Positions 29,891 through 57,374 of a stretch of 64,000 nt of DNA are shown piece by piece. This stretch comes from Combretum micranthum. Lineage: Eukaryota; Streptophyta; Magnoliopsida; Myrtales; Combretaceae. The notes under the pieces are model-generated. The model was not told where the DNA came from. It did no database searches and saw only the letters and a program-made list of their open reading frames with translations. The stretch is from NCBI GenBank assembly GCA_024138025.1, contig JAMXBD010000094.1:496001-560000 (forward strand). The letters run 5' to 3'. Within the stretch, counting starts at the first letter, position 1. The number at the start of each line of letters is the position of its first letter. Position numbers and translations under genes: made by a program.

Positions 29891-30895
29891 ATGAATTCAA
29901 ATATGTTGAGGATGAATGTTGATGAGATTTCAGGTAATCCTAAATTTTATTTTAGATGCAGTGTGAATAATAGTGACAGGGCATGCAATGTGGAAATTGA
30001 CAGTAGATGTTGTGCAATTTTTCTTACCACTTTGTTAGTGAAAAAGTTAAAATTGGAAACTTTGAAGCATCAAACACTTTACAAATTACAATTATCAAAA
30101 GGGTGTGAAGATATTCAAGTGACTGAGTAGGTTATATTTTCTTTTTATATTGGAAAGTACTGTGATGAAGTACTATTTGATTTGGTACCAATGGAAACTT
30201 GTCATGTTCTTTTGGGGCAACCATCGCATTTTGATAGGAAAGCCAAATATGATGAAAATAAGGATCGTTATTCTTTGGTTTTAAACAACAGGCGATTGAA
30301 TTTAGTACCCCTCAATCCATTGGAAGTTCACAAGGATCAGTTGATGACATCGAAGCAATTCAAGAAAGACAAAAAGAAAAGAATACTCAAGAAAATAATG
30401 AGAAAGATGAAAAGAATAAAAGTGAAGAAAAGAGTGAGATTAAAGAAAAGAGCGATTAAAGAAAGAGCGATAATACCTGAGAGCAATGAGAGAAAAGAAA
30501 TTGAGTGTGAAACACAAACACTTGAAAGTGATTGGATAAAAAAAGATAATATATTTTTTTCCACTAATGAGTTTTACCATTCTTTTCCAAGTGAGATTAT
30601 TTCATCATTGCAGGAATTTAAGGAATTGTGTCCTTGGAAAATTCTAGATGGAATTAATCATCAAACTGATTTCCTCCCTCTATTAAATCTAAAAGAATCT
30701 AAGAGCGAAGATTCGAGGACGAATCTTTTCAAAGAAGGAGGAAATGATGAGGATCTGATAGCATCAACATTAGAGCTGATCAACTCCAACTCCAACAATC
30801 AATTTCAAAGAGTTGGAGACTCATTGGTTATAGTTTCAATGATAAAAACACGAGTCAAGCAAACCTATAAAATAGTTTGGGATACGAAGGATTAA
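29891..30895 (+). pseudogene. Decayed gypsy protease/pol remnant
   Basis: Two frames in phase (29891-30130 and 30182-30895) are separated by an in-frame TAG at 30128-30130. They match the retropepsin region of plant gypsy polyproteins: LKHQTLYKLQ and VPMETCHVLLGQP followed by FDRKAKYDENKDRYS. The catalytic Asp motif reads DSR instead of D-[ST]-G, so the protease is dead. A lysine-rich linker follows, then the very start of the reverse transcriptase region (INHQTDFLP). This is fused directly to the terminal pol segment SRTNLFKEGGND that runs into the 3' LTR, so the core of pol has been deleted. Confidence 0.8.
30731..30744 (+). other. Polypurine tract
   Basis: AAAGAAGGAGGAAA, an all-purine run directly before the 3' LTR. 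This is the expected plus-strand primer. Confidence 0.85.
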
Positions 30896-31503
30896 AAACT
30901 TGAAGAATTGGAGCTGCAAGAGATTGTACGTCAACCCAACATTGCCGGCCTTCATTTAGTTTTTGTGTCTTTTCGAATTCTTTATTTTTATTTTTTTAAT
31001 AATGTAGGGATTAATTATAATTATGTTTTCAGTTACGTTATCAGCTATATAACTGCCACAATTATGGTTTTTTTTCAGTTACGTTATTAGTTACGTAACT
31101 GACATAATTATGATTTTTTTTAGTTGTGTAATTGCCTTATAATAGCCTATGTATTAAGGCTAGGGTCAGAGACAAATCTACAAAATACATTTTTCATTGT
31201 GAAAATATAATTTGAGAGAAATCCTTTCTATTTGAGTTCTTTTGAGAACTTGGAATTTCTTTAAGAATTTGAATTCTTGTTGAGTTCATCATTATACCAA
31301 GGTTTTAAGTCGGTATATCTAACAGGATCGTGATCATCATATCAAGGTTCTTTAGGTTACTCAATCATAGGGTCGAGGTTAATTCCATCTTATCATATCA
31401 AGATTCGTGGAGTTTCAGATCCAGATCTGAATATTTCATTGGGTCAAGATCCGCTTTAATTTCTTAGAGTCTGGAATTCAAGATTCGTGCTGAGTACGCA
31501 TCA
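30745..31503 (+). repeat. 3' LTR of the compact element
   Basis: A 759-bp direct repeat of 28875-29637, followed at once by the target duplication copy TAAGG. Confidence 0.9.
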
Positions 31504-39824: not shown

Positions 39825-39829
39825 ATATT

Positions 39830-40481
39830 TGTGTGGGTATGAATCCGGATGCAACGATCACGTGCGTGTCGCGTGACTATCGCGCTACGCGTGACCTAGG
39901 GAAACAACACGTGATAGGATGATCAAGAGAGAATCGTGTAGGGAGGAGGAGTAGGCAATCTCAATAGGCTCTAACACACGTGTGACAGGTAAGGGAGCTA
40001 AATAGCATCAACCTCACTGAGTACTATGGATTCGTGTATGTTCTTGAGTAAATTAAGTGTTTGATTCACCAAGACGGAAATCCGGCAGCACGACGGCGTT
40101 TGTCCAAGATTTCACCTCGTCCAAATGAGGTAAGGACTAAGGTATTTATAGAGAATCCAGCTGCCGATGTCGTCCGTCGGATCCGACAGACGACCAACGG
40201 CCAGGATGAGTCCCTCTCATTATGGATATGAATATGGGCTCCCTTATGGACCCAAGCCCATCAAGGCCTTCATTGTAATGTGTGTGAGCCAATTTGAGAA
40301 AGGTTGGAATTGGGCAGGCCAATTCCAACGGGCCCTACTCCAAGCCTTCCATACCAAAACTCCCATGATCATCCCAATATAATTGGGCCTAACTCTTTAA
40401 GCCCTGTCACATTAGCCCAGAGAGTTAGATCCAAATAAGAATTAGGCTCAAGGCCTTTGTAAGCAGATCTGTACATCTACA
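39830..40481 (-). repeat. 3' LTR of the Tat-type element
   Basis: 652 bp. On the + strand it starts TGTGTGGGTATGAATCC and ends GTACATCTACA; it nearly matches 56721-57369. In element orientation a TATA box (TATAAATA, 40150-40143) lies about 340 bp before the LTR end. Confidence 0.93.
40143..40150 (-). promoter_or_regulatory. TATA box in the 3' LTR
   Basis: TATAAATA on the minus strand, in context CTCTATAAATACC. The same motif sits at 57031-57038 in the 5' LTR, where it would drive the genomic transcript. Confidence 0.6.
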
Positions 40482-40494
40482 TTTTGCCCCCTGA
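40482..40494 (-). other. Polypurine tract
   Basis: On the minus strand CAGGGGGCAAAA lies directly before the 3' LTR start TGTAGATG. This is a purine-rich plus-strand primer typical of LTR elements. Confidence 0.7.
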
Positions 40495-40951
40495 CCAAAG
40501 TCCTTCGGGTTTCATCGGAGGGGTTTGGGCATTATTTCAAGCACTTTCGAATGACACAAGTTTCATCTAGCGCATGTGCGCTATAACTTAGCTGCACTGC
40601 CGCTTGGTGTGTTAATTTCTTAATGGCTTGTAATGTAGGAATCTGGTGCAACATCGTCAAATGATTGAATTCTTTTGAGAGATATTCCTATAGTATCATC
40701 TAATGAGCGTATTGTCTCATATTATACCATCCCTGAAACAATATTGTATCGGCATGTTTTCCTTTGTATATGAATTCATCTTCCGCTTCTGTTCCATATA
40801 AATGATCCTTCTCGGCGAGTTAATTTTACTTGCGTTTTATGGAGTCTTTGATCATACTTAACTTATTAGTCTCGACTTTATACTTGATAGAGTATCACCA
40901 AGCTAATGGATGCATCATACTACCACTTCTTGTCCAATAAATATTGCAACG
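40495..40951. other. Internal non-coding part of the element
   Basis: Lies between the polypurine tract and the BIG-like fragment. No recognisable gene or repeat. Confidence 0.5.
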
Positions 40952-42303
40952 CCAGTCCCTATGGATTGCAGCATTGACAAATTCCTCACATTTGCTAAAC
41001 CCACCAAACAAAACATCAGCCAAAACGCCTATAGTATCAAATGCTTCATGGAGATCGCTGGCAGAATTCATATCATCAAGCCAAGAGAACAACTCCTTGG
41101 AGAAACCAATCATTTCTTTGATGTTCATCAATCTCTCCTTCCTTGCGACTTCCCAGCTTTCAACACTGTCATCTCCTGATTCAGAGGACGTTCCTTCAGC
41201 TATAGCATGAGTAGTGGTTGCTGCTCTTCTAAACTTAAAGAATCTCTGCAGCTGCTCTATCAAACCAGTATAAACAAGCATTTGTCGTATCACAGACAAT
41301 ATGTCATTTGTTTCTTCTGTAGGTTCTGCAGAATCTTTTCTGCCTGCGATAGCTGCTGTATTGCTAGGTACCCAAGTGGACCTACCATGAGAATGCTGCA
41401 TATAGGCATGATATATTCCTCGCTGCAGGAAGGAGCGGCGATGTTAAAGCCAAGAGTCATAAGACTCCGATAACAGTGAATTCTCCATCATAAACTGGAC
41501 CGTCTCCTCAGTTCCTCCAGAGGATTGTGCTCCAGGAGGTGTCGATGGTCTTGACTCTGATGTTGAAGATGCCAAGTATGTTGATACAGCTTTCGCCATG
41601 GTACGACGCATAGAAGGACTGCCTTGATCAAGGAGGTGGCATCCCATCTGAATCATAAATGGCAAAAACCGGGAGTTGCTTTCCTTTCCACCACCTCGAC
41701 TTTCAGAACTGAATGATGCCCTAGTTACAAACAGAGCTAGCATCAGAACAATGTCATAGGTCGCTGTTCGGATTGTATAGCTACCAGTACATTTCACAAT
41801 GATTCGATTGTCGGTGAACTTTGTCTCAGATTTCAAACTTTCAAGTTTCATCCTGCTGTATGGAACCTCAGGAGAGCTGCAAGCAACGCAAGGCTCACTC
41901 TCAAGGTGGTAGCCATCAAATTCAACAAGACCACTTAAAGTACTGTATATACGTGAGTTTGGATGATTGGCCAAGAGTTCATTTTGTGAACGAAGTGATA
42001 AAAAAAAAAAATGCCTCTTACAACATCAGCTATCAGGAATTGGTTCACAATATCCAAGCCATATTGCTTTGAATTTGCATCAGGAACCTTTCCTAGTAAT
42101 CATGTGATAAGTTCTGTATACTCAACAATATTTTGGCCATATATTGGGAGGGCCTTAATTTTCTGAAACAATGAGATTAGCAAAGCTTCAGAATATAAAG
42201 TATGATGAATATACCAGCCATCATTAATTGGTCCAACATGGATGCAAGTAGATAGTACTGTCACATAGATGATCCCATTTGGCTTCCCAAACGCCCAAAA
42301 CAT
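40952..42303 (-). pseudogene. Captured fragment of BIG (UBR4-like giant protein)
   Basis: Minus-strand frames match the plant BIG/UBR4-like calossin family, a roughly 5,000-residue protein involved in auxin transport. Matching blocks in order are GPINDGWYIHHTLYSEALL, HPNSRIYSTLSGLVEFDGY, KLESLKSETKFTDNRIIVK, TYDIVLMLALFVTRASF, GCHLLDQGSPSMRRTMAKA and VYTGLIEQLQRFFKF. Defects: a break in the poly-A/T run near 42001-42011, a direct join of CTGSYTI to TATYDIV that skips the protein between, and a TAA at 41446-41444 where the family has Gln (WLQHRR). Similarity stops near 40952. It is a small, dead piece of the gene inside the retrotransposon. Confidence 0.85.
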
Positions 42304-42442
42304 GAGCTGTTAAACACAGGAACTTTGCACATGTACTCTGTTGAATGCCATAGGCCAGCTACCTTGAACCTAGAGTCTGGTCTCAACACGAAGGTTATAA
42401 GGCTATTATAAAGCAACAATCCTTTGATCACCTTGGAACATT

Positions 42443-42680
42443 TTTGAAGGCCTGTGCAAGTTTGCTAAGTATCATAAGTTTGCAGTCCGTGGAACCCTCA
42501 GAAGTAGGGATCTACTTAACTCTGTGAATGTTATACGCTCCATTGGCTTCAATTGTGATGAAAAACACTTTGCTACAGCTAGCTTCAACTGACTACGATG
42601 GAGCAGTTCAGATATGGGATGTAGGCACCGCTCAGGTTTTGTCACGATTTATAGAGCACCGGAAAAGAGCTTGGTCTGGA
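42443..42680 (+). pseudogene. Captured fragment of a SPA-type WD40 protein
   Basis: The plus strand encodes [29 protein letters not shown] and DEKHFATA. After a frame change it encodes [20 protein letters not shown] and EHRKRAWS. These are the start of the C-terminal WD40 domain of SPA proteins, partners of the COP1 ubiquitin ligase in light signalling. The protein between the two blocks is missing and the frames do not agree, so it is a deletion-bearing remnant. It lies antisense to the retrotransposon, opposite to the BIG- and PPR-like pieces. Confidence 0.85.
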
Positions 42681-44476
42681 TTCCCATTATCAGCATGAAT
42701 TCGATAGCAATCTAGAGAGGGGAGTGAATCAATGAAGCAGCTGAACACCAAGCCTAACATCAGTTCAACCACGCGATGGCCGAGCAACCCGTTATAGTGC
42801 AGATCATACATAACAAAATGCCCGAGCTGTTTCTTAGGATGTCGAGCAGCTGTAGCAGAATGATTGCTCCCACAGTAATAGCAGTTGAGCAACCATGTTG
42901 GCCAAGTTAGAGCGCCTATCGAGTATAGTGTTCTAGAATAGAACACAAAGTATCAGCCATGCCAAGTGCTCTAATTTCGCCCCCGAACACATAGTGTTAC
43001 ATTTTTTTTTATGTTGATCCATTGCTCAAATCCCCCGCTGCTGACACCTCATCTATTAAGTCATGATTACCATCTGACTCGTGCTATGAACCATAATTAT
43101 CCTCCTCAAGTGTACCAGCAGGAATATAAAGCTTTTCTCCTTCTCTGGAATTGAGAAGGAACCCAAAGCCAACGAAATGATCTGATCATCATTCTTGCCT
43201 TATCCTCTGCGTATTATGAGAAATTTTCTCTTTACATTCATGATATTTTCGACATCATTGCTAAGGCTGTCCTTGTTCCCATGTTAATTGATACACTTCT
43301 CAAACAAGAAGAGAATCAAAATCAAAATGGAGGGTACATATGCTCATGCAGACAGTCCAAGATCCTCATCCTCTCCTCCCTAACCTTGTGCAGGTTTGGT
43401 AGCGTAAAACCGAAGGAATCCTCATGTTCCTTTTGCCATGATATGCTATTACTGACTCGAGACAAAACCGTCTATGACACGCATCTGATAGTTAGTTCTC
43501 AAATTTCAACAGCACTGCTCTTTCGCATAACAATAACAAAGGGCTTCATAAGTTCATTTTGAAAATTGAAGTTAGCAAGTTCTTTCTCCTTCTAAAAAAA
43601 TTTCATTGAGAGCTGGAGCAAGGAATCCACACAAGCCGAATGGAATTCATGTTACAGGGCTTCAGAAAGCCTTCCTTCCATCAAGCAATGCTTTTGCTAA
43701 TGCACGGCCTAGCAATTATGGCATTCCAGTTGCCTGCTGCAGTGGGTGATCCGCTTATCTTGTACTGCTGCTGCAGTGGGTGGCCGGCTTATCGGTGTGT
43801 GTTCTTCTGAAAGCTGCAGCTTTCCTCATTTTTTTTTTTTTTTTGAAAAACTAATGTGCCTTGCTGCCAACACACATATCTGCCAAAGCTGTCATAATAT
43901 TATACTACTTGGGACAGGTGTCATAATTTGATAGTTGTAGTACAGCATATTGCTTCATTTGCTCCAACACATAAGATATCTTTTTGTTTTCTTTTCACAA
44001 TCCCTGCCTCATTTGTCCACATTTTAATCCTTGTTATTATTTTTACACAACTCTATATATACATATCACCATTTTCTTCCTTGTATGTCTTCACTGCCCT
44101 TCTCTTTTTCTTATCTGTCTTCTTTTCATTTCATTTTCATTTTTTTTTTCGTAGAGCTCTATTATTACAATTATGGTAGAAGACAAACAGCATAAAGATT
44201 TTGTTTTCTGCACTTCAATGACCCATAAAATTTTTTCGTTCCATCTCCTATTTTTGTAATCTTCAATGAGTGTTGCAAAGCTTTGGTGAGCTTGATTGAT
44301 CCTGCTGTATACAGTCGTTATTAGTAACTTGCAGGTTATTCCATGTTCTAGCTTGAAGAACTTTATGTTATCCATATGCCGCATCTGCAAGGAGGAATAG
44401 GGTTATGATAAATACACATGTCTGTGTCGATATAGGACTATAATGTTGATAAAATTGCATCAGCTGGTTCATGAAT
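42681..44476. other. Element interior, origin unknown
   Basis: Moderately GC-balanced sequence unlike the AT-rich intergenic DNA, with short broken frames on both strands (for example minus 42946-42632 and plus 43281-43562). The texture suggests more captured genic or UTR sequence, but I recognise no family. Short GCTGCAGTGGGTG repeats occur at about 43736 and 43770. Confidence 0.4.
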
Positions 44477-45215
44477 TCATTTCATTAAATTGACATCTGT
44501 GATGATGTCCAAAACATGTTCTGTCCCGTGTTTGTGCTGCATTGAATCGAACACTTTATCCCTGTATCGACAAGTCCAATCCATTTTTATAAGTGCTCTT
44601 GTTCTCTCAATATCTTCCCATCTTCCAGCATCAACATACATGCTGCAGAGTAATACATAATATCCACAATGATTTGGTTCTAACTCAAATAGGTTTTCTT
44701 GCAGAAATTTCTCCAAGTTATACATTCTTGTGGATCCTACAAGCCCCAAGAAGAGAGCTCTAGATGACATAATCGGGCTTCATCTTCATTCCTATGATCA
44801 ATTCATAAGCCTTGTTGAGATGTCCACCATGTCCAAGGAGATCTACAATGCAACCATAACACCCAACACCAGGTTCTATATTATACTTGCCTCACATTGC
44901 ATTGAACCAGTACCATCCTTCATCTACTAAACTAGCATGACTGCATGCCGTTAAGACATTAGTAAATGTGCCATCAGGTTTCTTGCTATTGTTAATCATG
45001 TTTTCATAAAGAAGAACAGCCTCTTTTCCACTTAGCATATACATGTATCATCTCATTCCATGTGATAGTATTGCGAAAAGACATTGTCTCAAAGATCTTC
45101 CAAGCACTATCCACATCATCCAATTCACAATACATGTTAATGAGGGCAGTCCCCATGTATACATCAGTTAGACGTACAATTTTTATAATCTGAGTATAAA
45201 CTTATCTTCCATTAA
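44477..45215 (-). pseudogene. Captured PPR-protein (E-class) fragment
   Basis: Minus-strand translation gives typical pentatricopeptide text: [62 protein letters not shown] and [17 protein letters not shown] followed by [15 protein letters not shown], the usual E-motif end. PPR proteins bind organellar RNA for editing or processing. Several in-frame stops and at least one frameshift (near 44690) interrupt it, and similarity ends soon after ALIK. It is a decayed fragment. Confidence 0.85.
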
Positions 45216-45479
45216 ATGCCTACTTGCTTGATTGGAATGCTTGCTTGTATTTGCTGATATTAAATGTGAAAAACAATTTTCGCAATGGTATCCTGGTTTG
45301 TTCCTACTTTGAGATCATTCCAAGAAAGTTTTATTGGTTCTTGACGGATCTTCATCCTTTGTATTTGTTGCTACTGTGCCTAAGTGTAGATCAGTAAGTC
45401 ACAGTGCAAGAGTAGTATCTTCAAGGTTGATTTCGACCTTGATTCATTCCAACTTTACCAAAACCCATAACATAAAAAT

Positions 45480-46185
45480 TAAAGATCTTTCCCTTAGCTT
45501 TCTATAGGATTTTGAATCACCTCAAAAGGAGTACGGGTGAGAGAAATATCCACAATTTACTCAACCCAATCGAATCTGTGAATCAGAACATTTCACTACA
45601 TATCCCGTATATTCATAGCTAATTCTGTATTGATGCGTCATGAATCCATCAAAATTCAAAAAATGAAAGTTGTAATTCTTTCTTTTAGCTTTCCAAGGAA
45701 TTTTGAATCACCTCAATAGGACTTCTCATGAGAGAGATATCCACATTTTCGCGAACTTCGTCAAATCTGCAAGACCAGGGATCTTCACTGTCATGCAGCG
45801 ACTTTATAACAAAAAACTGTATCGATTCGTTTTGAATCCACCAAAACTCAAAACACAAAAGTTTTAGATTTCCCTCTTAGCTTTCTAAGGAATTTTGAAT
45901 CACCTCAATAGGACTTCTCATGAGAGAGATATCCACATTTTCGTGGACTTCACCAAATCTGCAAGACCAGGGATCTTCACTGTCATGCAGCGACTTTATA
46001 ACAAAAAACTGTATCGATTCGTTTTGAATCCACCAAAACTCAAAACACAAAAGTTTTAGATTTCCCTCTTAGCTTTCTAAGGAATTTTGAATCGCCTTAA
46101 ACGGAGCTCATATGAGAGAGATATCCACATTTTCGTGAACTTCACCAAATCTGCAAAACCAGGGATCTTTGCATTCATTGAAACA
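45480..46185. repeat. 192-bp tandem repeat array
   Basis: About four copies of a 192-bp unit. TTAGCT(T/A)TC... starts at 45494, 45685, 45877 and 46069 (spacings 191, 192, 192). Copies 2 and 3 are nearly identical and the first and last are diverged. Each contains TTTTGAATC(A/G)CC, GAGAGA(G/A)ATATCCACA and ACCAGGGATCTT. The array lies in the 3' non-coding region of the Tat-type element, where this lineage often carries such arrays. Confidence 0.9.
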
Positions 46186-46489
46186 ACATTCTTTCTTCAC
46201 GAAAATATTGGTATCAAAACCATTTTTTTTGCTTTCCCTCAATAAGAGCTGCCAATATCCACATTTTGTGTGTGCTTTTTATTATATATGGTCAGCATGA
46301 GTGAAACCTTTCTTATTTGTAAAACTAACTCATCTCATTTTCTTGTAATGCAGGGCTCTAGATTGAAGTATTGAATCTCCACCGCGTATCTTCTTGACTT
46401 TGCTTTTGTAAGCATGATTTTCTTGTTTTATGAACTCATATTAATGTCATCAACTATTAATGATTCTTGCGTTCAAGAAGAATACTCAA

Positions 46490-46490
<1 letters not shown>

Positions 46491-46520
<30 letters not shown>

Positions 46521-46532
46521 CGCATTCATCAT
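46491..46532. repeat. (CATCATT)n short tandem repeat
   Basis: About five copies of CATCATT/TCATCAT between the 192-bp array and the plant-mobile-domain gene. Confidence 0.85.
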
Positions 46533-46579
46533 GTGTTCCATTCATTCATCTAATGACCACGGTGCCTCATGATTTTTAA

Positions 46580-46830
46580 GACGAAGCTCTTTGTTGTCCA
46601 TGTTCCGACCGCATAAATGGCAATCTTGAGACCATACACTGTACGATGACACTCTCAGCCGTCCGCGTCCCAAACTTCATGTGACAATCTTGGAACCGCA
46701 CATTGCGTCCGTGTTCCATTCCTCACATGATGATCTTGGCACCGCACCGCTATGAGAGAGGCTCTCCTCGGTTATTTGTGTCTCACTTGCCCGTGCGACG
46801 ATCTTGGAACCGCACCACTATAAGAGGAGA
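46580..46830. repeat. Degenerate repeats upstream of the antisense gene
   Basis: Four loosely spaced copies of a motif like GA(C/T)(A/G)ATCTTGG(A/C)ACCGCAC, with interspersed 'agaggctctcctcgg'-like segments. They are placed where the promoter or leader of the plus-strand plant-mobile-domain gene would be. Confidence 0.55.
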
Positions 46831-47046
46831 CTCTTTCTTATCTTGTGCACCCAGTCATTTGGTGAATGAATGAGATACTCCGGTAGCCGATGCACTTGTT
46901 GCATATGTCTCATGTCACATATTTGCGTTCATGATATTAGCATCTCTTTTGATCTTGTATATGCATATAACTCCTTTATCATGTAGGTGTGCATAAAATA
47001 AACATCTTGAGGATGGTGAGGGAAAATAGAAAGGGTCGATCTCGCA

Positions 47047-49846
47047 GTGGCAACCATAGACAAAAGTAATGAAATATTGGCGAATTCAGGTCATGTGCCG
47101 AAAGTTCCCTTGCCACGTAGTAAATGGCTTGATGCTACCATTCGAAATGATTTTTTCTGGAAAGATATCAAAAAGAGGGATTTGTGTGCTCATCCTCCTA
47201 AAGATGGTGAATTTCATTTCATCCAACCAGAGCCCCGAGTAAGCGATAGGAAGAACATAGATGAGAATTCCATTTTACGTTTCAGAAATGAAAGAAAGGA
47301 GCTTCCCCTTTCAGAGACAATGTTCAGTTACCCAAAACAGATATTGCAAGGATGGCAGTCATGGGTATATTACATTGTAAAGAATTCTCATTATAGGTCT
47401 CGTTTAGAAAGTGCAGGGATCAATTTTGCTATATGGATTTCTTCTAAAATGGTTATCCGTTCTCAAAGTGTTGAAGCATGGCGAGCTGTATTGGCACGTT
47501 GGAGTACATGTACACATACTTTTGTGACATCATGGGGTGAGATTACTCCAACCTTAGAAGATGTGTGCACATTGCTAAGTTTCCCTAGTTCTGGGTCAAC
47601 TGATATTGTCACGGCTGAGATTTCAGAAGAGGATGAAAAATTGGTGGAAGTACTAGAAGCTGATAGACAAGAAGCGAGAGACAGTCGTAGACAAGCATCA
47701 TTTTGTGCGTGGATAAGACATTTTTTTGAGCACGAAAGGACTCGATCCGAAGGCCCCCGGTATGGATGCGAGTAAGTATGCGTTCCTTGCTTTGTTTATT
47801 TATGCTTGATTGTCATCACTTCAATCTAACCTTACTCATGACTTACGATTCATTTCAGGCATGAGTTAGAAGCTTTCATCGCTTGTTGGTTATCCATGTA
47901 CGTGTTTCCCGGCGGGCCAGGAAAAGGTGTCAGTCCGCGACTTTTTAACTTGGCGATTCGTCTTGCTCGTGGAGAACGAGTTGCCTTGGCGCCTTTTTAT
48001 TTAGGGTCTTTATATCGGCGCTTGGACCTTTATAGTGAGACTTCAGTTCGATCAAAGGGGCGATATATCATCGTATCAAATGTAGATTTGGGATTTCTAC
48101 ACTTGTTTTTCAGCGAACATTACAAAAGATATCCAGGTGTACCTGTTGCAAAACCTGATCCTCCTGAACCTCGAGCTTGGGCTTGGGTTGATAGGAAGCC
48201 TTTGGGTTCATTACTTGATATTATAGATGATGCTCATGAGGTCGACTTTCGCCCTTATACAAAGGAATTGGAGGGATATGAGTGGTGCACAACATATTAC
48301 CCTTCGGGTTCCAAGACCTTAGTGAATCTGATGGAATGTGGTGAGCAGCTTTCTGAAGCTGAAGTAGTATATGTTCTCTGGTGTACACCTCGAGGTTTGC
48401 CTGCGCTTCACGATTGGTGTGATTCTTCTACTGAATTCTTGGAGCATAGAGTAATGTTGTACTCACCTCATCGGGTTGCACGTCAGTTTGGGTTTGATCA
48501 AGGTGTGCCTCCTATTGTGGCTATCGACACAGATTTCAATAGATGCTGTGAGGCAATTAGTCTTGAGAAACGCCATGAGCTCTATTGTTCTGTCAGACAG
48601 ATGTTTTTTCCATCTATCAATCGCTCCGGTGTTGCATCAAGTGGATGGTTAACGTATTGGACAGGGTGTCTTGAGGCATTCAAGAAATATACTCTTTCAG
48701 CTATAGATGACAGTTTGCCAGAGTCGATCATTTATAAGCATGAGTTCCACTTTCAACTTCCGAAAGATGACAAGAATAACACTTCAGGAAAAGCGGTGAT
48801 TGGGCGGACCATGCCTCCTGCATCAATCATCAGTCAAATCAAGCGTCCTCGCCTTTGTGAGGTATTAAATCTTGTTACTTAAGCTGTCTATATTATCGTT
48901 TCTTTACATACTATTGATATGTCATTAACCATGGTTTCACTCCTTTTTTTCTTTTCAGGACGAGTTGAGGACAAGCCGAGTCACAAGCCAAAGTGAGGTT
49001 AACAAAAATATTTCTGGCGATGGAAACGCCAGCACTTCTGGAATATTTGCTTCATCTAAGTCTTCTTCGCCGAACACTCACCCTTATCCCAATCGATATG
49101 GTGTTGGGAAGGTATTGCAAGCAAGAGGTGATAATACATCTGCTGTAGTGATTGATGATGATGATGATGATGATGATGATGAGGACATGGCCGGTGAGGA
49201 GCAAGCTTCTGACGACTTTGGAAGCGACAGAAGCGATCATGGAAATGAAAGCATACAGGAGGAGGATATTAATGCATATGCAGAAGCGTTGGCTGCAGAG
49301 ATTCACGGTGAGGGAATTGATGATGTCCCTTGTAATAATGCCTCCGAACCCCCGGCACATCAGGATACTACTCTTCCAAATAATGAAATACCAGAGCAAG
49401 TTGGAGGGGAGAACACGCACCCGCATATGATAACTTCGGGGGAGAGTGTTTCGTTTTATGAATTCCTGGTCCCCCCTATTTACTTGGAGTCATTAAAGAG
49501 GTTGCATGCACGTGATGGGGATTTTTGGGCAGGATCAATTTGTCCTGGTTCCGAAGTCACAAATGCTATGGTTGTGATGTTAGGTCGGGCGTGTATGCTG
49601 CTAGGTAGACCATGGAATTCATTTTCTTCAGCTGACTTGGAGTTATTGGTACAAGCTTTTAATAGTGCTCGTGCCTTGGGGTTTAAAATTGATAGCTTGG
49701 AGAGTGTTGCTAGCAAGGCACAAAAGGTATTGCACCATCGACCATTAATCCAACGTTACGAGAGGCTCAAGGCTGAACTTGAGGCGACACAACTCGAATT
49801 GGAGAATTCTCTTGAGGGTCTTGATACTGCTTCTATAGCAGAATAG
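47047..49846 (+). CDS. Plant mobile domain (PMD) protein, antisense in retrotransposon
   Basis: A three-exon gene on the strand opposite gag-pol: 47047-47771, 47859-48861 and 48959-49846, with GT-AG introns in phase, for about 870 codons. Exon 1 and exon 2 carry the aminotransferase-like plant mobile domain: ARWSTCTHTFVTSWGEI, TLEDVCTLLSFPSSG and SPRLFNLAIRLARGERVALA. Exon 3 has a (GAT)n-coded run of Asp, an acidic region and a C-terminal helical stretch ending LEGLDTASIAE. The start is unclear: 47047 is GTG, and the nearest ATG (47013) is one base out of phase. PMD proteins occur in plant transposons and in host genes such as MAIN, involved in silencing and meristem function. Tat elements are known to carry antisense extra frames. 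Its role here is unknown. Confidence 0.8.
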
Positions 49847-50346
49847 ATTATTGCATTAAGTTATGTAACTTCATGAACTTTGTCTTTGTTTTGTTTCATG
49901 TTTCATGCACAATATTTCACATGGTGCTACTTTCTCTTAGTTTTGTTCCCTTCACTTGGTATCGTATCATAGTACGATGAACTCGTGCGCTTTACAGAAT
50001 GTAAGATTCATGTGTAGCGGCACATTATATGTTATGACTTTGCGCGTTTAAATTATTATTTCTTTCGCGAGCAAAGGCTTCTTGATTTCATAAGAATTCT
50101 CAAGGGGGTATTACCCACTACTTGATTTCACAAGAATTCATATGCATGTATTATGCCACGCGCTTAGTAAATTTGAACTATTACAAGCTGCATGAATGAA
50201 TGAACGAATGTCGCGCGTATAGGAGACAAGTCTCTTACCAAGCAGCAGCAACATATAAATATAATGTATAATGAAATTGATCGGTGAAAGAATCATGTGA
50301 AAGCAAGCCCATATTATTCAAGTCATCATCATCACTGATCATGCTA
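49847..50346. other. Convergent 3' ends of the PMD gene and pol
   Basis: 500 bp between the stop codons of the plus-strand PMD gene and the minus-strand pol. Presumed 3' UTRs and terminators of both; 'agaattc' segments are repeated near 50090-50135. No further frame. Confidence 0.5.
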
Positions 50347-53300
50347 TTACATGTGAAACTTCTTTACATATTGAAAATTTATAGGAGCCGTAATAGCATC
50401 AGTCTTTGGATTGAGGAGCTTGCAATACCCGCTATCATGGACTTCATGTATAATGAAGGGACCTTCCCATTTTGGCGTGAACTTTGGCGCAGGTATACTT
50501 CGGCGCACATGCTCGGCTGCACGAAGTACAACATCACCCACTTGAAATGACCTTTTCTTCACCAACCGATCGTAGGCCATACCAAGCTTGTGTTGGTAGT
50601 TGATCAAGTTGTTTTTGGCCATATCTCGTCTTTCATCTAAGGCTTCCAAGTCTATTATGCGTAAAGCATCTGGCTCAAGCTCAGCATTGATCGCTAATCG
50701 TGCTGAAGGGATCAGAACCTCTATAGGCACGACTGCTTCGGCACCATATACTAACGAAAAAGGTGTTGCTTGTGTTGGTCGCCGCTTTGAAGTCCTGTAA
50801 GCCCAAAGTGCTAGGGATAGTTTATCGTGCCATTCTTTATGGTTATCGTGTACCATACGACTCAGAACCTTTAAAAGAGTCTTGTTCGTAGCTTCCGCTT
50901 GGCCGTTGCCCTTAGGGTAATAAGGGGTTGACTTTACATGATCAATACCATATGATTCCAACAGTTGTCGAACATGTGAATTGATGAAAGGAGTGCCATT
51001 ATCTGAAAGGATACGCTTTGGAATCCCGAATCGGCATATAATGTTCTCCTTGATGAAGCTTGCAACTATTGGTCCTGTCGCCTTCTTTAAAGGAATGGCT
51101 TCTACCCATTTAGTAAAACATTCAGTTCCAACTAGGATCCAAATACAACCTCTAGATGGCGGGTGAATAGGACCGATTAGATCAAACGCCCAAGTGTGGA
51201 AAGGCCATGGTGTTGTTAAGCTGTGAAGTGCAACTGCAGGAGCATGAATCACATCTCCATGTTCTTGGCAAGGAACGCACCGCTTAACAAAATTGGAACT
51301 ATCTGATTCCATGGTTGGCCAATAGTACCCCATGTCTAGTAGCTGATAATACAACTTCCTTGCGCCTTGGTGCTCACCGCATTCTCCAGCATGTACCTCG
51401 GTTAATATCTCTTCTGTTTCAGGAGATGTAATGCATCTGAGAGGCTTTCCCATGAATGAGACTCTATACAACTCATCCTCATGCATTAGGTACTTGCGTG
51501 CCTTCCTTTTTACTAATCTGGCATCCGTACTATTAGTTGGTAACACGTTATTCTTCAAATAGTCAATGTACGGACGACGCCAATCTCCAGCACTTGCGAC
51601 AAAATTACATTCTTTTGCATCTGGTAACTCAGAGCACTTAGGACAATGCATTTGCATCTGAGATGCATCCTTAGCCATTGAGGGCCAATAATACCCTGCA
51701 CGTTGAATGCGACGATACAAAGGGGGTCCTTCTTCCCCACACCAGATTTTATGATACTTGTCTAATTTTAACCGAGCCTGTTTCGCGCAAATGCATCGCG
51801 ATAGAACGCCCTCCGGTCCTTTAAAGTACAAAGCGCCATTGATACGAATAAAATTCTTCAAGGTTACGATGGAGGCCGCATTGGGTTGCGCTAATTGATT
51901 CTTGATACCAACACGCCAATCATCTCCTGTTTCATCATCTTCCTCCAACAATTGCAAGGTTGTGCAAGGAATAGTTTTCTTGATAACTTTGACATCTAGG
52001 CTTTCATCTGAAGCATGCATTGGAATCTTAGATGCCAATGTTGCCAATGCATCTGCGTAACGGTTCGTAGATCGTTTGGTATGTTCATACCTTACGACTT
52101 CAAACTTCCCAATTAGAGCCTGCACTGCAGCCCTATAAGGCGCAAGTGATGGCTCCTTGAGGGCATATTCACCATTGGTCTGCTTAATGATCAAATTCGA
52201 ATCGCCACGAATACACAAGTGGTTTGCTCCAGCTTCCAAGGCAAAGACGATCCCGAGTAACAATGCCTCATACTCGGCTTCGTTATTAGTGCAATGAAAG
52301 TCAAGTTTGAATGCCAAAGGTATTTCTTGGCCATTAGGTGATGTTAATACAACTCCTGCTCCCCACCCTTGACTTCCTGATGAGCCATCAAATTGAAGTG
52401 ACCATTCTCCTTCTGTTTCGATCATGAGTGAGTCCTCGTGAAATTCTGCTGGTATAGTATCTGTGATCACATCTTCACTTTCGTTCGGAAAATGAGCCAA
52501 GAGATCAGCTAAGGCCTGTGACTTAACAGCTTTAGGAGTCTGTATTGTAATGTCGAACTCTCCAAGAAGCAACAACCATTTTGCAATACGCCCAGACAAT
52601 GCTGGTCGTGACAATAAATACTTGATAGGATCTGACCGTGTGACAAGGTTAACCTTATGTGCCAGAAAGTAGTGACGTAATTTTTGAGTTGCAAACACCA
52701 GCGCGAGACAATGCTTCTCGCAAGCTGGGTATTTGACCTCACTTCCTTGAAGTGAGCGACTCAAATAATAGACCGGGCGTTCTTGGCCGTCTATTTCTTG
52801 TGCAAGTAAAGCTCCGATTGATCTGCTGGTAGAAGTGAGATATAATATCATCGGTACTTGCTTCACAGGCATAGTCATGGTATGAGAAGAAGTGAGAATT
52901 CCCTTAATTCTTTGAATCGCATCTTCATGGACTTGTTTCCATTCAAATGCAATTCCTTTCTTCATAAGTTGATGTAAGGGATGCGAAATCTCTGCAAGTG
53001 CAGGCATGAATCTCCTAATATATGAAACTTTCCCCATGAAAGTTTTCAACTCTTTCAAAGTAGTTGGCGAGGGCATAGACAATATAGCTTGTATTTTTGC
53101 AGGATCAACATCAATTCCCTTCCTATGGACCACGAATCCAAGGAATTTTCCCGAAGCAACTCCAAAGACACATTTCAAAGGATTCATGCGAAGCTTATAC
53201 AATCGACATCGTTCAAAAACCTTCCGAAGATGGACCAAGTGGTCCGGTGCATGTTTTGATTTCACGACTATGTCGTCCACGTAATCCTCCATGAAATCAT

Positions 53301-54054
53301 GCATCATATCGTGAAAAATGGCTGTCATTGCCCTTTGATAAGTAGCACCAGCATTCTTGAGTCCAAAGGGCATGACAGTATAATAGAAATTCCCAACAGG
53401 CGTTCGAAAGGCAGTACGCTCAGCGTCTCCAATCGCCATCTTGATTTGATTATACCCGCTGAAACCATCCATGAATGAAAATAATTCATGTCCTGCCGTG
53501 ACATCCACTAAGGTGTCTATATTTGGCAAAGGGAAATCATCTTTAGGACAAGCCTTGTTCAAATCACGAAAATCCACGCAAACCCTTATTTGACCATTCT
53601 TTTTTCTAACAGGTACGACATTTGCGAGCCAAGTAGGGTGCTCGATTGGTTTGATAAAGCCTGCATGAAGCAACTTCTCAATTTCATGTTTGATTTGAAC
53701 CTCAACCTCAGGACGGAAAACTCGTTGTCCTTGCTTAATAGGAGTAGTGCCCGGGGCGATATTTAGTCTGTGCACTACAAGACTAGGATCTAAACCTGGC
53801 ATCTCATCATATGCCCAAGCAAACACGTCCCTATATTCTCTCAACAAATCAATGAGAGGACTTTTAACATCTTGCAACAAACCTTTGCTGACAAAAATTG
53901 GCCGCGGCGACTCTCCTGGTCGCGCTAGATCCAATTCCTCAATTTCTTCATTCTGTGGCTTTATTTGATCTTGCATTTGTTGAGGGGCGGGTTGAATTTC
54001 TTGAATCGGTACAGGGTCTGAAGAAGAACAAACTTCCTTAGACCCTGGAAACCG
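50347..54054 (-). CDS. Pol polyprotein (RT, RNase H, archaeal-type RNase H, integrase)
   Basis: The frame is open from the codon after the Gag UGA (54054) to the stop at 50347. The first ATG is 26 codons in (53976), giving 1,209 residues from there. Reverse transcriptase shows FMDGFSGYNQIKMA and the catalytic YVDD. RNase H1 follows (PVYYLSRSLQGSEVKYP), then a second archaeal-type RNase H (LQFDGSSGSQGWGAG, NNEAEYEALL), the Tat hallmark. Next come two zinc-finger-like H2C2 regions and an integrase core with all acidic residues visible (AFDLIGPI, LSDNGTPF, NGQAEATNK). All catalytic residues that could be checked are present. It has no good start of its own and shares the Gag frame, so expression probably depends on UGA readthrough. 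Confidence 0.93.
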   Translation of the reverse strand, partial: RFPGSKEVCSSSDPVPIQEIQPAPQQMQDQIKPQNEEIEELDLARPGESPRPIFVSKGLLQDVKSPLIDLLREYRDVFAWAYDEMPGLDPSLVVHRLNIAPGTTPIKQGQRVFRPEVEVQIKHEIEKLLHAGFIKPIEHPTWLANVVPVRKKNGQIRVCVDFRDLNKACPKDDFPLPNIDTLVDVTAGHELFSFMDGFSGYNQIKMAIGDAERTAFRTPVGNFYYTVMPFGLKNAGATYQRAMTAIFHDMMHDFMEDYVDDIVVKSKHAPDHLVHLRKVFERCRLYKLRMNPLKCVFGVASGKFLGFVVHRKGIDVDPAKIQAILSMPSPTTLKELKTFMGKVSYIRRFMPALAEISHPLHQLMKKGIAFEWKQVHEDAIQRIKGILTSSHTMTMPVKQVPMILYLTSTSRSIGALLAQEIDGQERPVYYLSRSLQGSEVKYPACEKHCLALVFATQKLRHYFLAHKVNLVTRSDPIKYLLSRPALSGRIAKWLLLLGEFDITIQTPKAVKSQALADLLAHFPNESEDVITDTIPAEFHEDSLMIETEGEWSLQFDGSSGSQGWGAGVVLTSPNGQEIPLAFKLDFHCTNNEAEYEALLLGIVFALEAGANHLCIRGDSNLIIKQTNGEYALKEPSLAPYRAAVQALIGKFEVVRYEHTKRSTNRYADALATLASKIPMHASDESLDVKVIKKTIPCTTLQLLEEDDETGDDWRVGIKNQLAQPNAASIVTLKNFIRINGALYFKGPEGVLSRCICAKQARLKLDKYHKIWCGEEGPPLYRRIQRAGYYWPSMAKDASQMQMHCPKCSELPDAKECNFVASAGDWRRPYIDYLKNNVLPTNSTDARLVKRKARKYLMHEDELYRVSFMGKPLRCITSPETEEILTEVHAGECGEHQGARKLYYQLLDMGYYWPTMESDSSNFVKRCVPCQEHGDVIHAPAVALHSLTTPWPFHTWAFDLIGPIHPPSRGCIWILVGTECFTKWVEAIPLKKATGPIVASFIKENIICRFGIPKRILSDNGTPFINSHVRQLLESYGIDHVKSTPYYPKGNGQAEATNKTLLKVLSRMVHDNHKEWHDKLSLALWAYRTSKRRPTQATPFSLVYGAEAVVPIEVLIPSARLAINAELEPDALRIIDLEALDERRDMAKNNLINYQHKLGMAYDRLVKKRSFQVGDVVLRAAEHVRRSIPAPKFTPKWEGPFIIHEVHDSGYCKLLNPKTDAITAPINFQYVKKFHM

Positions 54055-54057
54055 TCA
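54007..54057 (-). promoter_or_regulatory. Candidate stop-codon readthrough signal at gag-pol junction
   Basis: The Gag stop TGA (54057-54055) is followed at once by CGG. Seven nt after the stop begins a hairpin: CAGGGTCT (54047-54040) pairs perfectly with AGACCCTG (54019-54012). Above a single A-C mismatch, AGGAAG (54038-54033) pairs with CTTCTT (54026-54021) with one G-U, leaving the 6-nt loop TTTGTT. CGGT (54054-54051) could also pair with ACCG (54010-54007). UGA-CGG plus a stem-loop about 8 nt downstream is the published type II readthrough layout of several plant RNA viruses. Pol continues in the same frame for over 1,200 codons. Confidence 0.7.
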
Positions 54058-56676
54058 TAAGAGATATACTCTTCGCCCATCCTCTCTAACATAACTTTCA
54101 ACAGCGTCAGCTTGCTTGTTCTTCTTTTTACCTCCTCGACAACCACGCATTTTTCTCTTCTTTTGTTGACCCTCTTGAATTTCTTCCCAAGTGGGTAATG
54201 GTACACCTGAAGCTCTAGCAATAGCTGTCTCACCTTCATCCGAGTACTCATTGAAGAAGGTAGATTCAATGAAATTTGCCTCATCGTGCTCGAAGGGATT
54301 CTTTGTAGCAGGAATAAATACATCCTTCCCTTTCCAATGTCCTTTGATACATTGATGCATCGTTGATGGCACTAAATTGTGATCGTGCAGCCATTTCCTA
54401 CCTATCAAGAGGTGGTAGGACACAGGCGCATCAATCACGTGAAAAGTAACACTACCACGGATAGGCCCAATCTTAAGATCAACATTAACTCTTCCAATGG
54501 TCTTTGTTGTAGTATGACTAAAGCCATTAACTGAAATGGGTTGCCTCACCAAACGACGATAGTCAATACCGGCAGCTTCAAATGTAGTCTTAGGCATGAT
54601 GTTGAGAGAAGAACCAGCGTCAATGAATGTCCTCTTAACTGGATAGCCATTAAGTGTGCCCTCCACATATAATGGTCGATTGTGATTTGGACCGTCTACA
54701 CACATATCTGCATCAGTGAACAAGATTGCATTTTCATGCGCTCGAGCCATTCTTTTGACTGGCTGCGCTGCACTACACTCGGCATATTGTCCCTCGGAAA
54801 TTTGCGCGAGCATAGTTGCTGCTGCAAGCCTTGCCTTCTCATCAAAGCCAAGTAGATCAAAGAAATTTCTAAAATTTGAAGTCTTCAAAAGCGCCGCAGC
54901 AATGGGTGCACAATCATTTTCCTCAATTACATGTTGTTTTCCTTTTGTGTTACTTGCCTCAGTAAGTGGTGTATCACTGGCCTCGACCATGGCAGGATCA
55001 TGAATAACGACGTTGACAGCACCACGCTGATTGTTATGGGTTGGAAGTGGATTGTTCCTAACATCATTATTTTCAATAACAAGCTCTCCACTCTGCACTC
55101 TTTCGTTGAAAATTCTCTTCAAAGTAAAACAATCCCTAGTAGGATGGCCTACAATCCTGTGGAACCTACAAAACTTGGGATCATTCCTCTCCTCTTGAGT
55201 TGGTAAACGCTCTACCCTCGGGAGCTTAAGATTTCCATCTCTCAACCATTGATCGAGCATAGCATGCACTTTTCCCATCGAACAAGGATATGTTGGCACT
55301 TCCTTTGTTCTCTCACGTCCAGACTTTTCAACTCTTCGTTTCTTCTCATCTTTGGGATCCTCACTTTGAGTTGCATTCACAGACGGTCCTCTTTTGTTAA
55401 AATTCACGCTTCCTCCTCTCTGTCGCATGACAGAATTATTAGTCCTTCGCGCATTCTCAACCAAAGTGGAGAATGAGGCTAAAGAGAGATTTTCCAGGTG
55501 TACCGCATATTCGGTGAACATGCCTTGGATGCAAATTTTCACCAGCTCTCTTTCGTCACATATGTCTTGGATGTCTAGTGAACGTTCCCTGAAACGCTCA
55601 ATATAATCCATCAAGTCTTCCTTGGGCTTCTGGCGAATCCGTCCCATATCAGTCAAGGTCACTCGTTCCTGTGTGGAGAAGAACTTCTCTAGGAACATCT
55701 TGCACATAGTTGCCCATGAATCTACTGATCCAGGAGGAAGGTTAACGTACCATGTGTACGCTTTCTCTGTAAGGGACTTAGAAAATTCTTTCAACTTGAG
55801 ATCATCATCAAATCCGTAAACCTCTAGCGTTTCAATGAACTTCAACAAATGTTCCTTGGCACTTCCTTTCTTACCATTAAATAGCATGAATTTGGGACTC
55901 ACATAGTCTTGAGGGTATGGCTTAGCAGCAATACGTTGATTGTATGGGAGTTTGAGATCCAATACTCCCACATCAGACTTAGCTTGTATTTCCCTCAAGT
56001 ACATGTCTAGATCTTCCTTTGTGACGAAAGTAACTTTAGGAGTTGAAGTAGTAACTTCAACTGGTGTAGCAGGAGTGACAGTCTGGAGTGGAGTTGTATT
56101 TGGTTGAGCAGCAGGTCCACCAATGACAATCTGTGGCGTAGTCTGTGAGGATGAAGATCCTCCGGGTTGAACATGTACTGTAGGCTGGGAAGTTGAGGGT
56201 CCTCCTAGCTGAATTCCAGTGTTCACTACCTGAGGTACAGGCAATTGCGTAACTATAGGCTCCAACGGAGGGGCTTGCTCCCTACTTCCAATAGTGTCAT
56301 GTTCAGGAGTAGGAAGAGGATCAACAGGTCGAGCAACTTGAGGTGCCTGAGAAGCGCGTTGTTGCGCAACAACAACAGGGTTCGACGAAGTCGCACCTTG
56401 TTGCGTAGCAGCAATAGCAGCTATTCCAGGCAGGTACTGAGCAAATATTGTCATGAATTGTTGGAATTGTTTTGCAGACTCTTGCATTGATTGATTGACT
56501 TGTTTGGTATTTTCTTGCACAGCACGCAAGATCGTAGCATTGTCTATTTGAGCACCAGCAGGTTGGTTCACATCCTCAAGTGCTGGCATGTCATGTTCAG
56601 TAGCCTCGGGATCAACATTAAGTTCTTGAGTTGTACCCTCAGTGGGATCGGTAGGTCTCTTCCTTGGAGGTGCCAT
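54055..56676 (-). CDS. Gag-protease polyprotein
   Basis: 873 codons starting MAPPRKRPTDP. The open frame extends further upstream into the primer site, but this ATG is the first after it. Order: a Gln/Pro-rich N-terminal region with a coiled-coil-like stretch, a retrotransposon gag capsid domain (KPYPQDYVSPKFMLF, KEHLLKFIETLEVYGFDD, YTWYVNLPPGSVDSWATM), a CHHC-type motif (FCRFHRIVGHPTRDCFTLKR), and a retropepsin domain with FIDAGSSLNIMPK. The active site reads D-A-G instead of the usual D-[ST]-G. The C-terminal tail is Lys/Arg-rich and ends at the TGA of the readthrough candidate. No stops or frameshifts are visible. Confidence 0.92.
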   Translation of the reverse strand: MAPPRKRPTDPTEGTTQELNVDPEATEHDMPALEDVNQPAGAQIDNATILRAVQENTKQVNQSMQESAKQFQQFMTIFAQYLPGIAAIAATQQGATSSNPVVVAQQRASQAPQVARPVDPLPTPEHDTIGSREQAPPLEPIVTQLPVPQVVNTGIQLGGPSTSQPTVHVQPGGSSSSQTTPQIVIGGPAAQPNTTPLQTVTPATPVEVTTSTPKVTFVTKEDLDMYLREIQAKSDVGVLDLKLPYNQRIAAKPYPQDYVSPKFMLFNGKKGSAKEHLLKFIETLEVYGFDDDLKLKEFSKSLTEKAYTWYVNLPPGSVDSWATMCKMFLEKFFSTQERVTLTDMGRIRQKPKEDLMDYIERFRERSLDIQDICDERELVKICIQGMFTEYAVHLENLSLASFSTLVENARRTNNSVMRQRGGSVNFNKRGPSVNATQSEDPKDEKKRRVEKSGRERTKEVPTYPCSMGKVHAMLDQWLRDGNLKLPRVERLPTQEERNDPKFCRFHRIVGHPTRDCFTLKRIFNERVQSGELVIENNDVRNNPLPTHNNQRGAVNVVIHDPAMVEASDTPLTEASNTKGKQHVIEENDCAPIAAALLKTSNFRNFFDLLGFDEKARLAAATMLAQISEGQYAECSAAQPVKRMARAHENAILFTDADMCVDGPNHNRPLYVEGTLNGYPVKRTFIDAGSSLNIMPKTTFEAAGIDYRRLVRQPISVNGFSHTTTKTIGRVNVDLKIGPIRGSVTFHVIDAPVSYHLLIGRKWLHDHNLVPSTMHQCIKGHWKGKDVFIPATKNPFEHDEANFIESTFFNEYSDEGETAIARASGVPLPTWEEIQEGQQKKRKMRGCRGGKKKNKQADAVESYVREDGRRVYLL

Positions 56677-56697
56677 CACACAAGTGTTGATTTCCCT

Positions 56698-56716
56698 GTC
56701 CCCAGTGGAGTCGCCA
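56698..56716 (-). other. Primer binding site, tRNA-Arg type
   Basis: On the minus strand TGGCGACTCCACTGGGGAC, four bases after the 5' LTR. It is complementary to a tRNA 3' end ...GTGGAGTCGCCA, which fits plant tRNA-Arg. The tRNA identity is from memory. Confidence 0.75.
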
Positions 56717-56720
56717 AAAA

Positions 56721-57369
56721 TGTGTGGGTATGAATCCGGATGCAACGATCACGTGCGTGTCGCGTGACTATCGCGCTACGCGTGACCTAGGGAAACAACA
56801 CGTGATAGGATGATCAAGAGAGAATCGTGTAGGGAGGAGGAGTAGGCAATCTCAATAGGCTCTAACACACGTGTGACAGGTAAGGGAGCTAAATAGCATC
56901 AACCTCACTGAGTACTATGTTCGTGTATGTTCTTGAGTAAATTAAGTGTTTGATTCACCAAGACGGAAATCCGGCAGCACGACGGCGTTTGTCCAAGATT
57001 TCACCTCTCCAAATGAGGTAAGGACTAAGGTATTTATAGAGAATCCAGCTGTCGATGTCGTCCGTCGGATGCGACAGACGACCAACGGCTAGGATGAGTC
57101 CCTCTCATTATGGATATGGTATGGGCTCTCCTTATGGACCCAGGCCCATTGAGGCCTTCATAGTAATGTGTGTGAGCCAATTTGAGAAAGGTTGGAATTG
57201 GGCAGGCCAATTCCAACGGGCCCTACTCCAAGCCTTCCATGCCAAAACTCCCATGATCATCCCAATTGGATTGGGCCTAACTCTTTAAGCCCTGTCACAT
57301 TAGCCCAGAGAGTTAGATCCAAATAAGAATTAGGCTCAAGGCCTTTGTAAGCAGATCTGTACATCTACA
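56721..57369 (-). repeat. 5' LTR of the Tat-type element
   Basis: 649 bp, about 98% like 39830-40481 by eye. Contains the TATA box at 57038-57031 on the minus strand. Followed on the right by target duplication ATATT. Confidence 0.93.
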
Positions 57370-57374
57370 ATATT

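Follow-up and report, generated by a model that had tools for sequence, protein, structure and literature searches.

A UGA codon followed by a conserved hairpin at the gag-pol border of a Tat retrotransposon in Combretum micranthum: a candidate stop-codon readthrough signal

Introduction

The 64,000-nt stretch of Combretum micranthum DNA analysed here (contig JAMXBD010000094.1, positions 496,001 to 560,000; referred to as the window, with positions counted from its first letter) contains a large, recently active LTR retrotransposon in which the gag-protease and pol genes are separated by a single UGA codon. Reading past a stop codon with the aid of a downstream RNA hairpin is a device described chiefly in RNA viruses and retroviruses. 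The initial annotation of this DNA proposed that Gag-Pol is made by readthrough of the stop codon, assisted by a signal of the type II class. Type II readthrough signals consist of UGA-CGG or UGA-CUA, mostly with an extended stem-loop about 8 nt downstream, and in most type II viruses the readthrough extension codes for the replicase (PMC3542737; this and the other sources given by PMC identifier are drawn on in excerpt). Our analysis supports the proposal, in that the UGA, the common phase of the two frames, the hairpin, and its conservation with two-sided base changes all point to readthrough. In the reading that we prefer, with a probability of roughly 0.84, Gag-Protease would be made by termination at the UGA, and a smaller amount of Gag-Protease-Pol by hairpin-stimulated UGA readthrough.

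Results

Anatomy and Lineage of the Element

The element (Table 1) is bordered by a 5-bp target-site duplication, ATATT, at 39825-39829 and 57370-57374, and its two LTRs are 97.4% identical by BLAST. Its pol frame has the Pfam domain order RVT_1, RT_RNaseH, RVT_3, H2C2, and rve, in which RVT_3 presumably represents an archaeal-type RNase H (aRH). A second, archaeal-type RNase H between RNase H and integrase is the mark of the angiosperm Tat clades Ogre and Retand, and a frame with a plant mobile domain (PMD) is present in 57% of Ogre elements (PMC6317226). Here, a second RNase H is likewise located between RNase H and integrase, and an additional PMD-bearing frame is present, in antisense orientation. 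Based on these two features, we call the element Tat, probably of the Ogre clade, an assignment that is drawn from domain content. The gap or intron found between the gag-protease and pol frames of Ogre is missing, as the gap is zero and the candidate splice donors are unconserved outside close copies (see below). A tblastn search of the window with nine proteins gave no match beyond 50300-56800.

Table 1. Features of the retrotransposon and its gag-pol junction, in window coordinates.
Feature	Position	Strand	Basis or remark
Whole LTR retrotransposon	39830..57369	-	17,540 bp; BLAST LTR pair and flanks
5' LTR	56721..57369	-	BLAST LTR pair and sequence
Putative primer binding site, TGGCGACTCCACTGGGGA	56699..56716	-	4 nt inside of the 5' LTR; read from sequence
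Gag-protease frame, first ATG to UGA	54055..56676	-	Stop-to-stop open frame 56748-54055; Pfam Retrotrans_gag and aspartyl protease
Candidate in-phase intron of 216 nt (rival reading)	54018..54233	-	GT donor at -176; AG acceptor up to +40, within the hairpin 3' arm
UGA stop codon, the proposed readthrough site	54055..54057	-	Sequence
CGG codon 3' of the stop	54052..54054	-	Sequence; unconserved in divergent relatives
Hairpin	54007..54054	-	Folding and covariation
Pol frame, 1,235 aa	50347..54054	-	RT, RNase H, second RNase H-like domain, integrase; in phase with gag-protease
Antisense frames with plant mobile domain (PMD)	47020..48882 (47020-47775, 47842-48882)	+	Between pol and 3' LTR; Pfam
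3' LTR	39830..40481	-	Purine-rich tract just before, about 40482-40496

The PMD gene is split over two frames in which the PMD profile matches adjoin (6-106 and 107-301), and the 66 nt separating them could be a small intron of the antisense-carried gene. The region from pol to the 3' LTR also holds a fourfold tandem repeat at 45441-46200, its copies spaced 191-192 nt apart; tandem arrays in this region are known from Retand elements (PMC11963269). Outside the element, the window contains a direct repeat of about 760 nt with 89% identity (28875-29637 and 30745-31503).

The Junction and its Hairpin

The minus-strand sequence and its frames bear out the description of gag-protease and pol as one frame with only a TGA in between: gag-protease ends in CTC TTA TGA, and pol follows in the same phase with zero gap. 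The codon directly after the stop is CGG, as annotated, and folding recovers the hairpin reported at 7 nt past the stop, with its 8 perfect pairs and 6 more above one mismatch. In its lower stem, nt 8-15 after the stop pair with nt 36-43, followed by one A.C mismatch, the six upper pairs (17-22/29-34, one of them G.U), and a 6-nt loop. Folding adds a 4-bp base (nt 1-4/45-48) that the initial annotation did not list. The arrangement thus has the UGA between two in-phase frames and the extended stem-loop about 8 nt past the stop (stem from nt 8) that are typical of a type II signal.

The 54 nt after the stop have a minimum free energy of -25.9 kcal/mol, which none of 1,000 dinucleotide shuffles equalled (z -6.3; z -5.9 in a repeat run of 2,000) and which ranks fourth when all 8,211 stop triplets of the window, from both strands, are compared. 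For comparison, the other two UGA-CGG sites in the window reach only -6.8 and -8.2, and the strongest value among 27 UGA-CUA sites is -10.7. When the 18 codons after the stop were recoded synonymously, only 1 of 5,000 recodings folded as well, so the protein sequence alone cannot account for the hairpin.

Occurrence of the UGA in the Source Genome

The UGA might be a nonsense mutation of one copy or of one burst of copies, with a hairpin downstream by coincidence; a private mutation of this kind had been named in the initial annotation as an outcome that would overturn its proposal. Many copies in the 1.86-Gb source assembly are nearly identical and young, so a UGA common to them alone proves little. 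All 40 copies scored from 501 candidates of a DNA search are identical to the query over 251 bases. A pattern requiring the gag tail and TGA gave 252 matches (reversed control, 0), and a pattern in which the stop position was left free gave 243, among the 100 listed of which 99 have TGA and one has AGA. Given the close relationship among these copies, the result shows fixation of the UGA in the family and does not imply great age.

More informative are the junctions reached through other routes. A search of the genome with a Fagus-like gag protein listed 58 matches, of which 32 were fetched and 20 could be mapped to the junction; among these 20, which were found by gag similarity with no condition on the stop, 18 have TGA, one has TCA, and one has the stop deleted. 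Both UGA and stem are present in three loci found without a stop condition (L228, L243, and L255). Further, a motif search for gag tails with Tyr-Arg-Leu or Tyr-Ser-Leu before TGA found seven places (control, 0). Four of these (L193, L194, L195, and L197) align with the window both before and after the stop, are 63-68% identical to it over the 200 nt before the stop, and have the UGA and the stem, although L195 and L197 have lost part of the hairpin 3' arm; a fifth (L191) aligns partly, and the remaining two (L192 and L196) are probably chance or remote matches. Since the stop position also recurs in other plants, where 28 of 30 proteins with the tail motif stop there, and the stem is kept with two-sided changes (both below), the private-mutation outcome does not apply, and we consider a nonsense mutation with a coincidental hairpin extremely improbable.

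Conservation and Covariation of the Stem

We compared 27 distinct junctions. Most come from TGA-requiring searches or are close copies, so the share of TGA among them is not evidence, and the comparison concerns the stem. A first count used 15 chosen junctions, leaving out 12 for arm indels, stop loss, or near identity (L195, L197, L203, L214, L220, L229, L230, L235, L242, L243, L249, and L253). In these 15, 85.3% of cells are paired (5 of 500 shuffles as high) and 16 cells in 7 pairs have changed on both sides, a number of cells reached by 2 of 500 shuffles; the covariation score was reached by 1 of 500. With all 27 junctions, decayed ones included, 84.3% of cells are paired (0 of 500 shuffles; 37.0-51.0% when the stem is slid), 18 cells in 6 pairs have changed on both sides (cells, 4 of 500 shuffles), and no shuffle in 500 reached the covariation score. 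The shuffle controls ignore relatedness, while the slid controls preserve it. Two further measures do not exceed the shuffles, namely how many pairs have changed on both sides (equalled or exceeded by 51 of 500 shuffles with 15 rows and by 253 of 500 with 27) and how many pair types occur (188 of 500 and 362 of 500, respectively). RNAalifold predicted 9 of the 19 pairs from the 15 junctions.

The hairpin is kept with different bases in families such as L228, L255, L193, and L194, and some relatives have A-U or G-C in place of the A.C mismatch of the window. In 16 of the 27 junctions the outermost base pair is missing. Fold energies of divergent copies range from z -5.0 (L194) through z -2.0 (L193) to z 0.2 in L191, which is without the stem. 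Several divergent copies are decayed, and in L261, a member of the L228 family, the pol that follows the hairpin is in a different frame.

The Codon After the Stop

The initial annotation named a conserved UGA-CGG with compensatory stem changes, in aligned relatives, as support for the signal. The UGA and the compensatory changes are found; the CGG is not conserved. Stop and next codon read TGACGG in 13 of the 27 junctions, TGATGG in 7, TGATGA in 2, and TGAAGA, TGACAA, and TGACGA in one each, the stop being lost in the other two. CGG is present in the window and in 97 of the 100 listed close copies (TGG in the other 3; the pattern admitted only these two codons), and the divergent relatives have UGG, CAA, CGA, UGA, or AGA, with AGG or GGG in a Fagus-like junction described below. 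Some of these changes look like CpG decay of CGR. As the next codon varies among relatives, the wider signal would be the UGA plus the hairpin, and we read CGG as a feature of the subfamily of the window, where it probably helps. The type II comparison stands for the UGA and the hairpin, and is restricted to one subfamily as regards CGG.

Related Junctions in Other Plants

Three protein searches returned 158 proteins, of which 30 have, downstream of the protease, the tail motif of gag-protease (Asp-Gly-Arg-x-Val-Tyr-x-Leu or close), a count that excludes gene models skipping the tail altogether. Among the 30 are two ENA proteins with 82% and 71% identity to the query region. The 28 that end exactly at the motif are from Rubus, Prunus, Quercus, metagenomic Fagus-like sequences, and others; many of the 30 are gene models, so no single end counts as independent proof. 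Only two of the 30 differ: a Fagus gene model skips into pol, and a Fragaria gene model runs through the stop position, with leucine there and arginine next.

A metagenomic protein, P0060, reads across the junction out of frame. Together with real-frame peptides of Fagus relatives, it fits one 36-codon DNA reading with few ambiguities, from which a Fagus-like junction can be reconstructed: TGA, zero gap, and in-phase pol codons, with AGG or GGG as the next codon and one later codon (NAA) not fully fixed. The stop in the P0060 copy is assumed from relatives, because CGA would fit too. When the second codon is TGC, as suggested by another peptide (P0077), all 8 expansions of the ambiguous reading have a stem of at least 7 bp starting from nt 7-9; over all expansions such a stem is present in 20 of 32, and the other 12 fold otherwise. 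The expansion beginning AGG TGC has an outline like that of the window, with a 4-bp base, 3 nt, and an 8-bp stem from nt 8. This placing of the stem is reached by 1.2% of shuffles, and its energy is ordinary (z -0.36).

We also asked how well the peptides that follow the stop allow a stem at codons 3-5, each compared with 400 permuted peptides. The fraction of permuted peptides as good was 0.50 for Fragaria, 0.095 for Prunus, and 0.05 for Rubus (codon numbering in Prunus and Rubus was inferred by eye), and 0.23 for the window and 0.20 for the Fagus-like junction.

Gene models of Fagus sylvatica and Prunus (among P0040-P0102) skip the stop through introns at varying sites. These introns are apparently prediction artefacts, which suggests that some public gene models at the gag-pol border hold invented introns.

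Beyond these proteins, two single-protein scans of viral contigs gave no match, and an alignment scan of viral contigs kept 80 loci, all of which matched only at query residues 548-693, the second RNase H-like region. A scan of genome contigs also kept 80 loci, 76 of them matching in or around that region; the other four (L081-L084, 24-35% identity) match more of pol. A tblastn search of plasmids returned only three records, all unrelated.

Splicing Across the Stop

Partial splicing as in Ogre would provide a different route to Pol: an intron over the UGA, with a donor at -176 or -74 and an acceptor at +40, would join gag-protease to pol, and unspliced RNA would yield Gag-Protease only. An intron that removes the stop had been named in the initial annotation as a second way in which the proposal could fail, and the window does contain good candidate sites. 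The acceptor ranks second of 445 and the -176 donor fifth of 323 in gag-pol by splice-matrix score, and the GT of this donor is kept in 29 of 30 close copies. Gag-protease and pol are joined by splicing in the Ogre elements of pea and Medicago (PMC6317226), the PMD frame fits the Ogre clade, and gene models of Fagus and Prunus place introns nearby, though at varying sites.

Outside the close copies, however, the donors are not maintained. In a wider comparison of 13 rows, the GT at -176 is present in four (the window, L208, L211, and L215) and missing in nine, and a GT at the aligned place of the -74 donor is present in six. The acceptor lies in the stem and is conserved because the stem is. 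Further, the candidate intron is not AT-rich (57% AT and 25% T, vs. 56% AT and 27-28% T in the flanks), and the coding tail is unbroken up to the stop, with pol following at zero gap, whereas the Ogre frames are on average 274 bp apart (PMC6317226). The missing donor in the wider comparison leads us to mark splicing down as unlikely.

Separate Production of Pol

Pol could also be made separately after termination at the UGA, by re-initiation, internal entry, or bypass aided by the hairpin. In pol, the first ATG is found at codon 27 past the stop, and a comparable junction in the Candida element Tca2, with UGA and a possible pseudoknot, gave no readthrough in yeast (PMC2194720). Such a mechanism, however, has no need for an in-phase junction with zero gap, which is found in the window, in many copies, and in the reconstructed Fagus-like junction, and the hairpin has the spacing of readthrough stimulators, about 8 nt (PMC3542737). 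We consider separate production of Pol quite improbable.

Discussion

Proposed Mechanism

From the sequence features described above we infer ribosomal readthrough at some frequency, with the hairpin as its stimulator. In the readthrough model, most ribosomes would terminate at the UGA and release Gag-Protease. The hairpin, beginning after a 7-nt spacer, would lie at the mRNA entrance of a ribosome halted at the stop, where it could lower termination and allow a near-cognate tRNA to decode the UGA. The usual near-cognate tRNAs at UGA are those for Trp, Arg, or Cys. The fraction of ribosomes that continue in phase would then produce Gag-Protease-Pol.

Comparison With Known Systems

A UGA between gag and pol with a possible 3' structure is also found in Tca2 of Candida albicans, an element of the Ty1/copia type. 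Unlike the element described here, Tca2 is fungal, and its junction directed no readthrough in the yeast assay cited above.

The closest likeness in signal is to the type II signals of tobra-, peclu-, furo-, pomo-, alpha-, and coltiviruses, which share with the junction the UGA, the CGG (in the subfamily of the window), and an extended stem-loop about 8 nt past the stop (PMC3542737). In contrast to these viruses, the candidate signal is part of an LTR retrotransposon in a plant chromosome, its next codon varies (UGG, CAA, AGG) while the hairpin stays, and its readthrough is deduced from sequence. In murine leukaemia virus, a gammaretrovirus, the gag stop is likewise read into an in-phase pol with a 3' RNA structure 8 nt downstream (PMC9553062, PMC3542737), but the stop is UAG and the structure a compact pseudoknot, whereas the element described here has UGA, a plain long hairpin, and the protease before the stop.

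Within the Tat lineage, the legume Ogre elements share the RNase H order, the PMD frame (in many of them), and the division into gag-protease and pol frames. Their frames are separated and joined by intron splicing (PMC6317226), whereas here a single UGA with zero gap is followed by a conserved hairpin. Retand elements with two sense frames are also Tat and carry antisense frames and tandem repeats in the long stretch that separates pol from the 3' LTR (PMC11963269); their antisense domain is TRP28 (PF04195), in contrast to the PMD found here.

Significance

Tat elements include some of the largest plant retrotransposons, and control of the Gag to Pol ratio is known for Ogre, where it operates by splicing. 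If the proposed mechanism is correct, the Tat lineage would have a second way of setting this ratio, through readthrough at a conserved hairpin; a plant genome would harbour hundreds of copies (252 and 243 pattern matches) of a recoding element like those of plant viruses; and an RNA structure would have outlasted its codon context. More broadly, we lean towards the view that a branch of angiosperm Tat elements (in this genome, Fagaceae-like sequences, and Rosaceae) relies for Pol on UGA readthrough, with the hairpin held 7 nt from the stop, the place and geometry of the stem having been kept while its sequence and the next codon turned over. One lineage would then have solved the problem of the gag-protease/pol border in two ways, by readthrough and by the Ogre intron. 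The conserved gag-protease tail, the UGA, and a stem at nt 8 together provide a search motif for other genomes.

In the open-licence full-text literature, as excerpted, we found no report that names readthrough between gag and pol in a plant LTR retrotransposon; subscription papers, including a 2003 survey of gag-pol recoding and a 2008 paper on Ogre splicing, lie mostly outside this scope. The word readthrough does not occur in the excerpted text of the 2019 survey, the 2025 Retand survey (PMC11963269), or a 2025 review (PMC12786077), the last of which gives frameshifting or two transcripts as the two main strategies.

Variation Among Copies

Twelve of the loci fetched with the Fagus-like gag protein could not be mapped to the junction (L232, L233, L237, L239, L240, L244-L247, L251, L252, and L256). 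One such place, fetched again as L260, contains no pol in about 1.3 kb, and L232 enters LTR-like sequence (judged by eye); some of these gag-protease copies look like pol-less, non-autonomous derivatives. Among the close copies, 8 of 30 that were fetched (L161-L190) are identical to the window copy over 2,400 internal nt around the junction, despite the 2.6% difference between its LTRs, a combination for which duplicated DNA, recombination between LTR variants, or template switching between them may be responsible.
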